A stretch of 32,515 nucleotides of DNA from Caldilineales bacterium. Lineage in GTDB: Bacteria; Chloroflexota; Anaerolineae; J102. A model generated the notes under the pieces. The model saw nothing but the letters and a program-made list of their open reading frames with translations. It was not told where the DNA came from and ran no database searches. The translations under genes and the position numbers were made by a program. Shown piece after piece: positions 85 through 32,515 of the stretch. Location of the stretch: NCBI GenBank assembly GCA_026417535.1, contig JAOADB010000001.1, positions 1 through 32,515 of the forward strand, given 5' to 3'. The first letter of the stretch is position 1. The number at the start of each line of letters is the position of its first letter.

Positions 85-1443
85 TCAATCCCCCATTCCC
101 CCCTCTTCGGCGAAATACCCCAACGCGAAAAGGGCCAGCAAGAAGCCCAGGTAGTTTTCGTTTAGAAAGCGCGAGAAGTAGGCGAAAGCGAACAGCAGCA
201 AGGCGCCGTGCCAGACGGCATGGCCGAGGGTGTTCGTCCGCCGTTGCCGCTCCAGCAGGTACAGGAGCAAAGGCAGACCCACCACCAGCTCCGGAATCCA
301 GAAAGGCCAGTAGGCAAAACGGTCAGGCAACGCGCCGGTGGCCAGGACGAAGTTGGCAAAACCCCAGCCCCAAATCTGATAGTGGGTTGCCGCCGTGCCG
401 GCCGCCCACCGCCAGACGTCATCCACGAAGGCGTTGGCATCCCAGGCCAGGTAGGGCACCACAAAACCCAAGAAGACGAGCAGACCGGGCCAGCCCCGCC
501 GCCACAGGAGCGGTAGCCGGCTAGGTAGCTCGCGCCAGGCGAAAGGACGGTCGGCCAATAGGGCCAAACCCCAAAACGGCACCAGAAACCAGGCCGTGGG
601 CTTGCTGGCGCAGGCCAGGCCGAGACAGACAGCGCTCCATCCCGGCCGTCCTCGTCGCAGCAGCCACAGACCCAGCACCACCCAGGCCAGGACGAAACTG
701 TCGTTCTGCCCGAAGACGACATCGAGGCCCATAATCGGGTTGAGACCGATCAGCATCGTCAGCAGCAGGCCATCCCGGCGGTTTCCACTCACCAATCCCG
801 GCAAGAGCACCAGGGTCAGCAGCATGAGCAGCAGATAGGTGAACCGCTGGTCGTACCAGCCGAAAAGGGCCTGGGATACGACCCGCACCGGCGCCGACAG
901 GACAAAGGTCGCCGGCAGATACGGGTAGTGCTCCAGCGCCGTGCGGAATTCGGGAAAGCCCCACTCGGCCATGGGTGTCCCGGCGTAGCTCTCGCGGTAG
1001 GGGTTGCGACCTTCGAGAAAGTACGCGATGGCGATCTCGGTCTGGATGACGCCGCCGTCGTGGCTATAGGAATGGGGCAGGTTGTCGTGGCGCAACAGGG
1101 CCAGCTTGAGCGCAGGCAAGAAGAGCAGCACCGCCAGGATGACCCCGAGCAGACCCATCTTCAGCCGGTAGATCGTTTCGGCGCGCCAGCGCTCCTGGAG
1201 CAGGTCAACCAGGGCGTAGAGCAGCATGGCCAGCAGGCTCACCGCGGCCAGCAAAAGGAAAACGGGGTCGCCGAACCACGGCCCGAAGGCATTGATGGCC
1301 GCTGGCGGCAACCAGCCGCCCACCCAGGGATGGCGGACGACATTGGCGAAATGCTCGAACAGGCCGGCCTCGGCGAAGCTGTTGATGCGCAACCGGGCTG
1401 TGATGAGCAGAAAGAGGATGAGGACATCCAGAGAGCGGCGCAT
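85..1443 (-). CDS. Polytopic membrane protein, GT-C/GT87-like glycosyltransferase candidate
   Basis: A 452-residue protein dominated by hydrophobic segments, about ten probable membrane helices. The stretch around residues 125-165, with the motifs SYSHDGGVIQTE and NPYRES, and a later GQND motif resemble prokaryotic GT-C-fold mannosyl/arabinosyl transferases of the GT87/DUF2029 type, which move sugars from polyprenyl-phosphate donors on the outer face of the membrane. That function is inferred from fold type only; the acceptor is unknown. The ATG at 1443 is taken as the start; a GTG at 1464 in the same frame would add seven residues, and neither has a clear Shine-Dalgarno site. The gene stands alone: its downstream side is the contig end and the upstream neighbour is divergent. 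I am sure it is a real membrane protein and less sure of the enzyme class. Confidence 0.72.
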   Translation of the reverse strand: MRRSLDVLILFLLITARLRINSFAEAGLFEHFANVVRHPWVGGWLPPAAINAFGPWFGDPVFLLLAAVSLLAMLLYALVDLLQERWRAETIYRLKMGLLGVILAVLLFLPALKLALLRHDNLPHSYSHDGGVIQTEIAIAYFLEGRNPYRESYAGTPMAEWGFPEFRTALEHYPYLPATFVLSAPVRVVSQALFGWYDQRFTYLLLMLLTLVLLPGLVSGNRRDGLLLTMLIGLNPIMGLDVVFGQNDSFVLAWVVLGLWLLRRGRPGWSAVCLGLACASKPTAWFLVPFWGLALLADRPFAWRELPSRLPLLWRRGWPGLLVFLGFVVPYLAWDANAFVDDVWRWAAGTAATHYQIWGWGFANFVLATGALPDRFAYWPFWIPELVVGLPLLLYLLERQRRTNTLGHAVWHGALLLFAFAYFSRFLNENYLGFLLALFALGYFAEEGGMGD

Positions 1444-1520
1444 AGGACGGATACGGGAAAGCACAAGACGAGGCGGACGCCGTTCGTCACAGGGTTGGGC
1501 TGTTGGCCGGGACGGACGAT

Positions 1521-1708: not shown

Positions 1709-1717
1709 TGCTACAAT
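1709..1717 (+). promoter_or_regulatory. Candidate extended -10 promoter for the alcohol dehydrogenase
   Basis: TGC-TACAAT is a good extended -10 sequence. There is no convincing -35 hexamer 17 bases upstream. A transcript starting near 1724 would have a leader of about 100 bases before the GTG at 1823, carrying the A2 hairpin and the TTGACC palindrome. Confidence 0.35.
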
Positions 1718-1780: not shown

Positions 1781-1789
1781 TCTTCTTCA

Positions 1790-1813
1790 AAAATTGACCA
1801 CGGTCATTTTTTG
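1790..1813. repeat. TTGACC-palindrome repeat, copy 1
   Basis: TTGACCACGGTCA with flanking A and T runs. It matches the copy at 1898-1921 at 21 of 24 positions. The arms TGACC and GGTCA face each other over two bases. It lies directly before the Shine-Dalgarno site of the alcohol dehydrogenase, a position suited to an operator or an RNA hairpin controlling translation. Confidence 0.7.
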
Positions 1814-1822
1814 AGGTCGCTC

Positions 1823-2821
1823 GTGTTGGCCCAAGTGTTATACGAACCCCGCCCCATCACCCAGCAACCGTTGCAGCTCCGTGACGTGCCGACACCTAAA
1901 ATTGACCGCGGTCAACTTTTGCTGAAAGTCACGGCCTGCGGGGTGTGTCGCACCGACCTGCATACGGTCGAAGGCGAGCTGGAATTGCCCCGGTTGCCGC
2001 TAATCCCCGGCCACCAGGTGGTGGGGATTGTGGCGGCCGTGGGGGCCGATGTGCACACGATTCGCGAGGGCGACCGGGTTGGCGTGGTGTGGCTGTATCG
2101 GACGTGCGGCGAATGCCGATATTGCCGGGCCGATCGCGAGAACCTGTGCGAGCGAGGCGAGTTCACCGGTCTCCATGCCGACGGTGGCTATGCCGAGTAC
2201 ATGGTCGTAGACGCGGCCTTTGCCTACCCGCTGCCGGGCCTGCTGAGCGACGTCGAGATGGCGCCGTTGCTATGCGGCGGCGTCATTGGCTATCGGGCCT
2301 TGCGCCTGAGCGAGGTGCGACCGGGCGAAACCTTGGGTCTGTACGGCTTCGGGAATTCGGCCCATGTGACCATCCAGGTGGCGCGGCATTGGGGCTGTCA
2401 GGTCTTCGTGTTCACACGTAGCCCCGGTCACCAGGCCCACGCCCGTGAGTTGGGCGCAGCGTGGGTAGGGCGTGCCGAGGATACGCCGCCGGAACCCCTC
2501 GATGCGGCCATCATTTTCGCTCCGGCCGGCGAGCTGATCCCCCAAGCGTTGCGCGTCTTGCGGCCGGGCGGGACGGTGGCCCTGGCCGGTATTCACATGA
2601 GTCCGTTGCCGACCATGCCCTACAGCTTGCTGTATCGCGAGCGCACCCTCCGCAGCGTGGCCAATAGCACCCGCCAGGATGCCCGCGAGCTGTTGACCCT
2701 GGCAGCCGAAATCGGCATCCGCACGGACGTGACGCCGTTTCCGCTGGCCGCTGCCAACGAGGCCTTGTTGGCCCTCAAGGAGAGCCGACTGCGCGGGGAT
2801 GCCGTGCTTGTGATGGGATAA
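1823..2821 (+). CDS. Zinc-dependent alcohol dehydrogenase (MDR family)
   Basis: A 332-residue medium-chain dehydrogenase that should oxidise alcohols or reduce aldehydes with NAD(P)H in the cytoplasm. Catalytic zinc ligands are visible as the GVC cysteine (about residue 42, in GVCRTD) and the GHQ histidine (about 64). The structural zinc loop has four cysteines at about 95, 98, 101 and 109 (CGECRYCRADRENLC). A nucleotide-binding region with YGFGNSAH follows. GTG at 1823 is chosen because GAGG sits 6 bases upstream and the amino terminus then aligns with relatives; TTG at 1826 is the alternative. Oddly, the usual proline/glycine-rich turn before GQLL is replaced by KIDRGQ, encoded by a perfect TTGACC palindrome that also occurs upstream of the gene. 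The gene converges on the pRiA4b ORF-3-like gene with a 14-base gap. Substrate is not predictable. Confidence 0.88.
   Translation: MLAQVLYEPRPITQQPLQLRDVPTPKIDRGQLLLKVTACGVCRTDLHTVEGELELPRLPLIPGHQVVGIVAAVGADVHTIREGDRVGVVWLYRTCGECRYCRADRENLCERGEFTGLHADGGYAEYMVVDAAFAYPLPGLLSDVEMAPLLCGGVIGYRALRLSEVRPGETLGLYGFGNSAHVTIQVARHWGCQVFVFTRSPGHQAHARELGAAWVGRAEDTPPEPLDAAIIFAPAGELIPQALRVLRPGGTVALAGIHMSPLPTMPYSLLYRERTLRSVANSTRQDARELLTLAAEIGIRTDVTPFPLAAANEALLALKESRLRGDAVLVMG
1898..1921. repeat. TTGACC-palindrome repeat, copy 2 (inside coding sequence)
   Basis: TTGACCGCGGTCAA at 1902-1915 is a perfect 14-base palindrome within the alcohol dehydrogenase coding sequence. With its flanking A and T runs it matches 1790-1813 at 21 of 24 positions. 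The two centres are 108 bases apart, close to ten helical turns. Confidence 0.75.
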
Positions 2822-3582: not shown

Positions 3583-3606
3583 GGAACACTCCTTGAGACG
3601 ATAGAC

Positions 3607-3639
3607 GATGTAGCACAAGATGCCATCTTGCACAACGTG
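3607..3639. repeat. 33-base palindromic repeat, copy 2
   Basis: The arms GATGTAGCACAAGATG and CATCTTGCACAACGTG surround a central C; the right end is diverged. It sits about 24 bases upstream of the pRiA4b ORF-3-like start. A segment reading CTTGAGACGATA precedes it at 3592 and recurs before copy 3 at 3662, so the two copies look like a local tandem duplication about 70-80 bases apart. Confidence 0.8.
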
Positions 3640-3684
3640 ATGAATTCCTCCCTCATGCGTTCTTGAGACGATAACGATATAAAC

Positions 3685-3713
3685 GATGTAGCGCAAGATG
3701 CCTCTTGCACTAC
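3685..3713. repeat. 33-base palindromic repeat, copy 3 (shortened)
   Basis: GATGTAGCGCAAGATG followed by a shortened right arm, CTCTTGCACTAC. It lies just beyond the stop codon of the DUF6062-like gene, as copy 1 lies beyond another gene end. Confidence 0.75.
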
Positions 3714-11642: not shown

Positions 11643-11765
11643 ATGGGACTTCCCTTCCCGCCATTGGCCCCTCACGGGGATGAGGAACGGAGGACGAAGA
11701 GCGGTCGTCTTTCGTCATTCGTCTTTCGTCTGCTCGGCATGGGCCAGGGTGGGAATCGGGGCCAT
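11643..11765. repeat. Composite GACGAA-word inverted element A4
   Basis: The core has a left arm with GGAGGACGAAGAG and a right arm of three exact 7-base words at 11711-11731 (TTCGTCA, TTCGTCT, TTCGTCT). Beyond the words, CCGCCATTGG (11658-11667) and CATGGGCCAGGGTGGGAAT (from 11738) match the flanks of the element at 22665-22790. The element lies within the leader of the radical SAM operon. Confidence 0.7.
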
Positions 11766-11815
11766 CATCGTCATCAGGCTGAATCGTTACGGTCATGCAA
11801 CATTCAAGCGGGCGG

Positions 11816-11844
11816 ATTATAAGGTCTAAGGGAGCTGAAGTCAA
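11816..11844 (-). promoter_or_regulatory. Sigma-70-type promoter of the radical SAM operon
   Basis: On the minus strand TTGACT (11844-11839) and TATAAT (11821-11816) are separated by exactly 17 bases, a near-consensus promoter. Transcription would start near 11809, leaving about 300 bases of leader before the ATG at 11512. The hairpin element A4 lies within that leader. Confidence 0.8.
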
Positions 11845-11871
11845 ATTTTTATGAAGTGTGTCATAAAAATT
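11844..11871. promoter_or_regulatory. Candidate operator palindrome next to the -35 box
   Basis: AATTTTTATGA and TCATAAAAATT form a perfect 11-base inverted repeat over the 6-base spacer AGTGTG. It abuts the -35 hexamer of the radical SAM promoter, sharing its edge base, in an otherwise GC-rich region. This spacing fits a dimeric transcription factor acting at that promoter. Confidence 0.6.
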
Positions 11872-11920
11872 AGGCGCATGTCGTGGTCCGGCCTCCGTCC
11901 CGGAGTGGGGCCGCGGGCGG

Positions 11921-11948
11921 GGACGAAGGACGAACGACGAAGGACGAA
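11921..11948. repeat. GACGAA 7-base word array A5
   Basis: Four exact tandem 7-base units: GGACGAA, GGACGAA, CGACGAA, GGACGAA. No matching inverted arm lies within about 100 bases, making this a one-armed member of the family. It lies in the 541-base gap 11513-12053, which also holds the radical SAM promoter, its palindrome, element A4 and the terminator at 11998. Confidence 0.75.
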
Positions 11949-18397: not shown

Positions 18398-18423
18398 AAT
18401 GACAAAAAACCTCCTTTTGGATT

Positions 18424-18569
18424 GGTTACTGGTTACTGGTTACTGGTTACTGGTTATTGGTTACTGGTTATTGATAACTAAGAAAACCGCATCTTTCAAC
18501 TTATTAAACCAACAACCAATACCTAGTAACCAATACCTAGTAACCAATAACCAGTTACCAATTACCAGC
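18424..18569. repeat. GGTTACT-word inverted array B1
   Basis: Seven exact tandem 7-base units run from 18424 to 18472 (GGTTACT or GGTTATT). After a 34-base AT-rich spacer, nine tandem 7-base units run from 18507 to 18569 (AACCAAT, ACCTAGT, AACCAGT and similar), roughly the reverse complement. The whole is an imperfect hairpin in the rtcB leader, ending a few bases before its Shine-Dalgarno site. The remainder of the 560-base gap 18398-18957 holds palindrome copy 4, array C1 and a candidate promoter. Confidence 0.9.
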
Positions 18570-18678
18570 CAAGCTGGAATAACGGCGAAACAGCCGGCCA
18601 GTCGTTATCACTTTATCGTAATGACTCAAGCCGATGATAGCCCAGGTTCCGACAGGGCTCCATCACAGGCGGACGAAA

Positions 18679-18711
18679 GATGTCACGCAAAATGGCATCT
18701 TGCGCTACGTC
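18679..18711. repeat. 33-base palindromic repeat, copy 4
   Basis: The arms GATGTCACGCAAAATG and CATCTTGCGCTACGTC surround a central G. It is the same length as copy 1, and the arms are extended by GGACG before and CGTCC after the core. It lies in the intergenic gap between rtcB and the DUF5763-like gene. Confidence 0.8.
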
Positions 18712-18834
18712 TTGCGTCCGTCGTGCTGGCGAGCGGCCGCTGGCAGGAAGGGAAGCCCCATCCGGAACATAAGGCAGTGGGCCAAGTATTTACATTTTAT
18801 CACACAACTGCTCCGACGGGCCTCCTTTCACCTC

Positions 18835-19813: not shown

Positions 19814-20512
19814 ATGAACCAAGCACCCGACCCGGCCATCCTTGCCCTCATCCCTGCCTACAACGAAGCGGCCCACATCGGTGCGGTCGTCACGGCCACG
19901 CGGGGTTATCTGCCGGTGCTGGTGGTGGATGACGGTTCGACCGATGCCACGGCGGCAATAGCGACGGCGGCCGGCGCTATCGTGCTATCGCAACGACCCA
20001 ATCAAGGGAAGGGCGCGGCCTTGCGCCTGGGGTTTCGGCAAGCCTTGGCGACTGGTTACGAAGCCGTCATCACCCTGGATGCCGACGGTCAACACGCTCC
20101 CGACGACATCCCGCGTTTTCTGGAATGTTATCGCGTTACTCAGGCCGATTTGATCATCGGCGCCCGCGATTTCGGCCACATCCCACCGGTGCGCCGTCTA
20201 GCCAACATCCTGGGGCGTTTGTCGTTTTCCTGGGCCGTAGGGCAACCCATCCCCGACAACCAATCGGGCTATCGTCTGCTCAGCCGGCGCTTGCTGGAGC
20301 GCGCCCTGGCCGGCCGCGAAACGGGTTACGAGTTCGAGGTCGAGATGATCGTGCTGTGCCTGGAAGCCGGTTATCGCCTGGAGTGGGTTCCCATCCGCAC
20401 CATCTACGCCCACGAGACCAGCCACATCCGGCCGTTGCCTCACGTCATCCACTTCACCCGCTTGGTCTGGCAAACCCGGCGCCGGATGCGCCGCCGCGGT
20501 GATAACTGGTAA
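19814..20512 (+). CDS. Family 2 glycosyltransferase (polyprenyl-phosphate-sugar synthase-like)
   Basis: A 232-residue GT-A fold enzyme. The order of motifs is classical: LIPAYNEAAHIG (12-23), VVDDGSTDAT (37-46), NQGKGAALRLGF (63-74) and the metal-binding DADGQH (89-94), then a QSGYRLL acceptor-site segment and an FEVEM pair. The family includes dolichol- and undecaprenyl-phosphate mannose or glucose synthases, which charge a lipid carrier with a sugar from a nucleotide donor at the inner membrane face. There is no carboxy-terminal membrane segment, so it belongs to the soluble or peripheral type. ATG at 19814 is chosen by fit to the family; an upstream ATG at 19769 lies inside a hairpin. The last codons and the stop are supplied by a repeat, B2. 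Such a donor enzyme could serve the GT-C-like protein at 85-1443. Confidence 0.88.
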   Translation: MNQAPDPAILALIPAYNEAAHIGAVVTATRGYLPVLVVDDGSTDATAAIATAAGAIVLSQRPNQGKGAALRLGFRQALATGYEAVITLDADGQHAPDDIPRFLECYRVTQADLIIGARDFGHIPPVRRLANILGRLSFSWAVGQPIPDNQSGYRLLSRRLLERALAGRETGYEFEVEMIVLCLEAGYRLEWVPIRTIYAHETSHIRPLPHVIHFTRLVWQTRRRMRRRGDNW

Positions 20513-20532
20513 CTGGTAACCAGTTACCAGTT
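20504..20532. repeat. AACTGGT-word palindrome B2
   Basis: AACTGGTAACTGGT and its exact reverse complement ACCAGTTACCAGTT meet at one central base. This is the same word as B1 in perfect palindromic form. It spans the final codons and stop codon of the glycosyltransferase gene. Confidence 0.85.
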
Positions 20533-20547
20533 ACTAGTCCCTCATTC

Positions 20548-22664: not shown

Positions 22665-22790
22665 ATGGGTCGCCGTTGCCGCCATTGGGCTCGAAGGACG
22701 AAAGACGAACGAGGGAAGGCGACGTTTTTCCTCTTTCGTCTTCCGTCTTCCGTCTCTTCGACATGGGGCAAGGTCGGGAACGGGCCCATT
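22665..22790. repeat. Composite GACGAA-word inverted element A6
   Basis: The left arm has GGACGAA and AGACGAA words (22696-22709). The right arm has TTTCGTC, TTCCGTC, TTCCGTC (22734-22754). Outside them CCGCCATTGG (22679-22688) and CATGGGGCAAGGTCGGGAA (from 22762) match the flanks of A4, and the outer ATGGG...CCCAT segments also pair. The whole 126 bases can fold as one imperfect hairpin between rplK and rplA. Confidence 0.8.
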
Positions 22791-29151: not shown

Positions 29152-29167
29152 GGAAGCCATCCTGACG

Positions 29168-29238
29168 AGAACGAAGACAAAGGACGAAAGACGGAAGACG
29201 AAAAAACACCTTCGTCCTTCGTCTTTCGTCTTTCGTCC
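29168..29238. repeat. GACGAA-word inverted element A8
   Basis: The left arm reads as consecutive 7-base units AGAACGA, AGACAAA, GGACGAA, AGACGGA, AGACGAA (29168-29202). After 8 bases the right arm reads TTCGTCC, TTCGTCT, TTCGTCT, TTCGTCC (29211-29238). It is the clearest GACGAA hairpin in the window and lies immediately before the phosphofructokinase start, in the 140-base gap after metK. Confidence 0.9.

Positions 29239-30584: not shown

Positions 30585-32515
<1,931 letters not shown>

Follow-up and report, generated by a model that had tools for sequence, protein, structure and literature searches.

A perfect palindrome within the coding sequence of a zinc-dependent alcohol dehydrogenase gene of this Caldilineales bacterium is conserved as DNA in another genus, where it occupies the same codons, and neither codon usage nor a dispersed repeat accounts for it. 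Together with a closely similar segment in the 5' leader, it probably represents a pair of operator sites for one DNA-binding regulator of the dehydrogenase gene. A distant relative that retains the palindrome at exactly the same codons, written with very unusual codon choices, makes an operator likelier than a mobile repeat or coincidence. Below, the window is the whole stretch of DNA analysed (32,515 nucleotides), G000 is this genome, other handles (e.g. G001, G003, G006) are relatives, and g4 is the genus of G003 and G004. The features under discussion are as follows.

85..1464, minus strand: glycosyltransferase family 87-like membrane protein gene, divergent, with a common intergenic region (GT87, 28.8 bits, cut-off 25)
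1709..1717, plus strand: predicted extended -10 element TGCTACAAT of the dehydrogenase promoter, +1 at about 1724 (sequence by eye)
1788..1813, plus strand: upstream operator-like site CAAAAATTGACCACGGTCATTTTTTG in the 5' leader, abutting the Shine-Dalgarno sequence; centre at about +76; 1 mismatch of 22 to CAAAAnTTGACCnnGGTCAAnTTTTG
1813..1817, plus strand: Shine-Dalgarno sequence GAGGT, by eye, 5 nt before the GTG at 1823
1823..2821, plus strand: zinc-binding alcohol dehydrogenase family protein, 332 aa (TIGR02822 adh_fam_2, ADH_N and ADH_zinc_N)
1896..1921, plus strand: intragenic operator-like site CTAAAATTGACCGCGGTCAACTTTTG, codons for KIDRGQLL; centre at about +184; same codons kept in G006; rare codons

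The dehydrogenase matched TIGR02822 with 379 bits (cut-off 283.5) as well as the Pfam ADH_N and ADH_zinc_N models, and its GTG start at 1823 aligns with the MRA... start of the orthologues. No convincing -35 element was found by eye for the predicted G000 promoter, and several orthologues carry TATAAT- or TACAAT-like boxes ahead of their start codons. The divergent arrangement with the GT87-like gene was also observed in G001, G003, G004, G005, G006, G016, and G019; since the dehydrogenase is usually divergent to this gene (in G000 and at least seven relatives), the promoters of the orthologues represent the same locus. The shared intergenic region contains a conserved ATGTTACACGA (TCGTGTAACAT on the opposite strand) at about 1610-1622 of the window and in relatives, which is probably the promoter of the divergent GT87 gene. 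In G005, G013, G015, G016, and G019 (L244, L245, L247, L249, L251) the dehydrogenase is adjoined by a small helix-turn-helix-like protein (MALYVRPLS..., approximately 171-205 aa) and a 405-aa enzyme-like gene. The orthologous dehydrogenase of G011 (L019, L031; G011:C17:2901-3883) is split across two frames, through a frameshift or an assembly error.

The first-pass annotation described two similar 24-base segments, and direct reading of the sequence confirmed them: positions 1790-1813 (AAAATTGACCACGGTCATTTTTTG) and 1898-1921 (AAAATTGACCGCGGTCAACTTTTG) are identical at 21 of 24 bases, with a start-to-start distance of 108 nt, or 36 codons. The inner copy contains TTGACCGCGGTCAA (1902-1915), a perfect 14-bp palindrome as had been reported, with AAA ATT GAC CGC GGT CAA translated as KIDRGQ, and occupies codons 25-33 of the dehydrogenase gene. 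Flanking A- and T-runs extend both copies to 26-mers (1788-1813 and 1896-1921), each matching CAAAAnTTGACCnnGGTCAAnTTTTG at 21 of 22 positions. Four ungapped pairs of 24-mers in the window have 21 or more matches and lie no more than 300 nt apart, namely this pair, two pairs from one 7-base tandem-repeat array, and one other repeat pair; ten local shuffles of the window gave zero such pairs. Allowing up to two mismatches, TTGACCGCGGTCAA had 3 matches against 0.07 expected. Several further repeats are present in the window: a dispersed imperfect inverted repeat resembling GTAGCGCAAGATGGCATCTTGCGCTAC (28-65, 3603-3640, 3679-3702, and 18675-18712), 7-base tandem repeats (TGGTTAC and relatives, on both strands) that flank a short region (18421-18568 and 20500-20541) and have similar arrays in relatives (L025), and low-complexity repeats rich in GGACGAA/TTCGTC in several intergenic regions (1499-1533, 11667-11944, 22678-22754, and 29164-29237).

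The position of the inner site was compared in 15 orthologues (69-75% identity) and in more distant ones. Relatives mostly carry an EPGPGQ-like segment encoded by GC-rich codons, in agreement with the Pro/Gly-rich turn proposed earlier, and KIDRGQ proved to be a same-length replacement, with no insertion, relative to the close orthologues. G006, which belongs to a different genus and shares 72% protein identity, contains CAAAAGTTGACCCTGGTCAAATTTTG at the identical codon offset, 73 nt from the start, where its residues are K-V-D-P-G-Q-I-L vs K-I-D-R-G-Q-L-L in G000. In each of these two genes the site is the best 26-bp palindrome. Codon choice at the site is extreme: in the G006 gene, GGT accounts for 1 of 36 glycine codons and CAA for 1 of 13 glutamine codons, both within the site. 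Of the 2,614 nine-codon windows in G006, those over the site have the four lowest codon-typicality ranks, while the best-placed site window of G000 ranks 7 of 4,242. Furthermore, where a G000 codon ends in A or T, G006 has the same third base in 5 of 7 cases within the patch vs 9 of 63 outside it. When synonymous codons were redrawn at random from each genome's own usage, leaving the protein unchanged, an equally good palindrome arose with P=6e-5 for G000 and in none of 200,000 draws for G006 (P<5e-6).

Both sites are absent from G018 and G019, which are listed in the same genus as G000; the upstream region of G006 has no second copy, leaving the inner site only; and an order-wide orthologue search added zero genomes. 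A protein tree built without the patch did not group G000 with G006, yet the grouping was not rejected (p-AU 0.24), so that the G000 and G006 sites may go back to one origin, by common descent with slow loss, or to two.

These comparisons bear on whether the copies could have arisen by coincidence, the codons for xDxGQ (GAC CNN GGT CAR, i.e. GACCNNGGTC) yielding the inner palindrome and the leader copy being a chance resemblance. In keeping with this, nearly all other TTGACCnnGGTCAA-like words of the genome are in-frame L-T-x-V-N/K coding words, the PDPGQ of G001 gives TGACCCTGGTCA at the same place, and 24-mers shared by G000 and G006 at 20 of 24 or better are not rare in the gene (207 of 967). 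However, the protein requires neither the AAAA/TTTT flanks nor the rare codons, the synonymous randomisation results speak against chance, and there is a third copy in the leader as well as upstream sites in G003 and G004. The D-x-G-Q codons account for part of the core, as in G001, but, on the sequences compared, leave the flanks, the rarity of the codons, and the leader copy unexplained, and coincidence is considered unlikely.

The alternative offered in the first-pass annotation, a repeat that invaded coding sequence, was addressed through copy number. In the G000 genome (3.6 Mb, 79% complete), TTGACCnnGGTCAA occurs at three sites: this locus, a lipoyl synthase-like gene, and one further coding sequence. 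With up to one mismatch the core has 39 sites, an excess attributable to in-frame L-T-x-V-N/K words, which make up nearly all sites outside the locus. Across 20 family genomes the 26-mer CAAAAnTTGACCnnGGTCAAnTTTTG (three mismatches or fewer) was found at only three sites, two in G000 and one in the G006 orthologue, rather than the hundreds that a dispersed repeat might show. A looser search of the family with AAAnnTGACCnnGGTCAnnTTT returned matches that, among those inspected, were mostly coding and had no common target. The 396 genomes of the class yielded one extra good match plus weak ones, and the 400 genomes of the phylum yielded, beyond this locus, one 2-mismatch site only. Taken together, searches for the core or 26-mer in the genome itself, the 20 family, 396 class, and 400 phylum genomes, and viral contigs detected no dispersed repeat. 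The good class match (L174, G049:C55:56147-56172), from another family of the class, is a perfect 26-bp palindrome, CAAAAAATGACCGCGGTCATTTTTTG, of the same motif class, located near the 3' end of an ABC transporter ATP-binding gene and just upstream of a permease gene. The weak matches include one of two tandem intergenic palindrome copies (ATGACC..GTCAACTTT) situated approximately 46 nt apart in G203 (L175, G203:C133, ~30850-30922).

Invasion by a short palindromic repeat in the style of the Rickettsia palindromic elements would fit two near-identical copies, one of them coding, and the atypical codons. It is contradicted by copy number, with no further copies in the genome or in the 20 family genomes, and by protein length, which is unchanged; the element, furthermore, is only 26 bp. 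A dispersed palindromic element of this type was rejected both for its lack of many copies and for the lack of an in-frame insertion, and we regard it as extremely improbable.

Related palindromes were present upstream of orthologues. The 350-nt upstream regions of 77 orthologues contained 3 exact matches to WTGACCnnGGTCAW, namely the G000 leader copy, one in G003, and one in G004; permuted half-site palindromes gave a mean of 0.014 per motif over the same upstream sequence. The W and n positions had been chosen after the relatives were seen. With G000 excluded and only TGACCnnGGTCA considered, the expected count was estimated at about 0.03. Because W was set post hoc and the two matches other than G000 come from a single lineage, this upstream enrichment lends moderate support to the operator reading. 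In both g4 genomes the palindrome abuts the predicted -35 hexamer and is centred at -41.5 (predicted promoters TTGCCT-17-TACGAT in G003 and TTGTCG-17-TATGAT in G004); across 396 genomes this arrangement was found at the two g4 dehydrogenase promoters and three other matches. In G014 and G016 an imperfect TTGACTATGGTCAG overlaps the -10 box. Promoters at all of these loci are predictions.

A role in RNA was also considered, in which hairpins near or after the ribosome-binding site, or pairing between the copies that hides the Shine-Dalgarno sequence, would control translation. The copies fold as hairpins (-7.5, -4.6, and -5.9 kcal/mol), and the predicted leader fold pairs both copies and AGGU with ACCU. 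Hairpin folding, however, is expected of any DNA palindrome, no compensatory changes were seen (the mismatches are T:T in the leader copy, A:C in the inner copy, and G:A in G006), and the folding energy of the leader is unremarkable (z -1.54). Moreover, G006 has one copy only, and in g4 the sites precede the predicted start of transcription. Folding yielded no convincing switch, and control at the RNA level is considered very unlikely.

The operator proposal of the first-pass annotation is supported by the conservation of inner-site DNA in G006, the extreme codon choice, and the related palindromes at g4 orthologue promoters. The primary site would be that in the 5' leader, against the ribosome-binding site, and the one within codons 25-33, 108 bp further downstream, would be auxiliary. 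Since both sites lie downstream of the predicted transcription start, repression is the likeliest action, and in G000 the sites probably act in this way; protein binding, repression, and the identity of the regulator are matters that we infer from sequence. Such repression could mean that RNA polymerase is blocked or made to pause, the second site serving to increase local occupancy. A bound internal operator in the E. coli gal system need not stop elongation, hence a roadblock here is uncertain too.

It had also been claimed that the spacing suits DNA looping, which it does not specifically support: 108 bp corresponds to 10.29 turns at 10.5 bp per turn, and G006 has the inner site only. A narrower version of the operator reading, in which the sites act specifically through a DNA loop joining two bound dimers, would be in keeping with two sites 108 bp apart, one of them intragenic, as in gal (113 bp; PMC4693257). 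In gal, however, a spacing of 108 bp does not fit the helical phase: repression by looping works at 103 and 113 bp but is lost at exactly 108 bp (PMC4693257). The single site in G006 likewise disfavours such a mechanism. Looping in this specific sense is judged improbable; a flexible regulator may allow it.

Regulator genes near the dehydrogenase locus were examined across relatives and none was consistently linked. The small helix-turn-helix-like protein beside the dehydrogenase in five relatives was rejected as a candidate, as its distribution does not follow the motif. TetR regulators were likewise set aside; G000 has three TetR_N genes and G006 four, and the best nearby motif match has 3 mismatches. 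CRP/FNR regulators are encoded by several G000 genes, with further ones in relatives, and no motif lies near those fetched (the best match has 2 mismatches). Two groups of these CRP/FNR candidates are widespread in the family, one of which has an FNR-like recognition helix without the iron-sulphur cysteines of FNR.

The palindromes at g4 promoters support movement of the site during evolution, with turnover of the operator between the promoter, the leader, and coding sequence. More specifically, a regulator-binding site may have moved into the reading frame of a conserved enzyme gene and been retained across genera at the cost of rare codons and an altered Pro/Gly turn, with the promoter, leader, and coding positions seen in relatives representing turnover of one operator; we put this forward tentatively, as a fuller account that could well be wrong. 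If true, the locus would be a clean natural case of a regulatory DNA site and a protein sequence on the same bases, in which regulatory demand has visibly changed both codon choice and amino acids. It would also provide a defined motif and locus for finding the regulator of alcohol/aldehyde metabolism in uncultured Chloroflexota.

Comparison with known systems revealed partial likenesses. Rickettsia palindromic elements place a palindrome within protein-coding sequence, as is seen here, but the present case involves no insertion, a single locus, and 26 bp. The FNR box, TTGATnnnnATCAA, is 14 bp long with a class II position of -41.5; CRP/FNR boxes share with this motif the 14-bp two-fold symmetric TTGAC-N4-GTCAA format and, at the predicted promoters of G003 and G004, the centre at -41.5, whereas the G000 and G006 sites lie downstream of the predicted start and the CRP/FNR proteins of the genome have no motif link. 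The consensus of E. coli RutR, a TetR family regulator, is TTGACCAnnTGGTCAA, a palindrome that has TTGACC/GGTCAA in common with this motif. Four bases separate TTGACC from GGTCAA in RutR boxes vs two here, and no TetR gene is linked here. RutR boxes are palindromic and approximately 16 bp long (PMC10891134), and many are located within genes (PMC9659370).

The E. coli gal operators OE and OI offer a similar arrangement: both are bound by one regulator, GalR, they lie approximately 110 bp apart, and one of them falls within the opening codons of the gene under control. The sequence of GalR boxes is not that of this motif. The gal spacing is in phase and OE precedes the promoters, whereas here both sites are 3' of the predicted start and 108 bp apart. 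The gal operators are 113 bp apart from centre to centre, with OI at +53.5, inside galE (PMC4693257). At the present locus a second copy, 21/24 alike, lies within the regulated gene, and DNA conservation extends beyond coding need, as judged by the G006 codons and synonymous randomisation. The inner site is best read as a putative intragenic auxiliary operator of the gal OI or lac O2 type, an arrangement of a known kind that would here occur in Chloroflexota, a phylum with little experimental work on regulation, and with an unusually visible coding cost.
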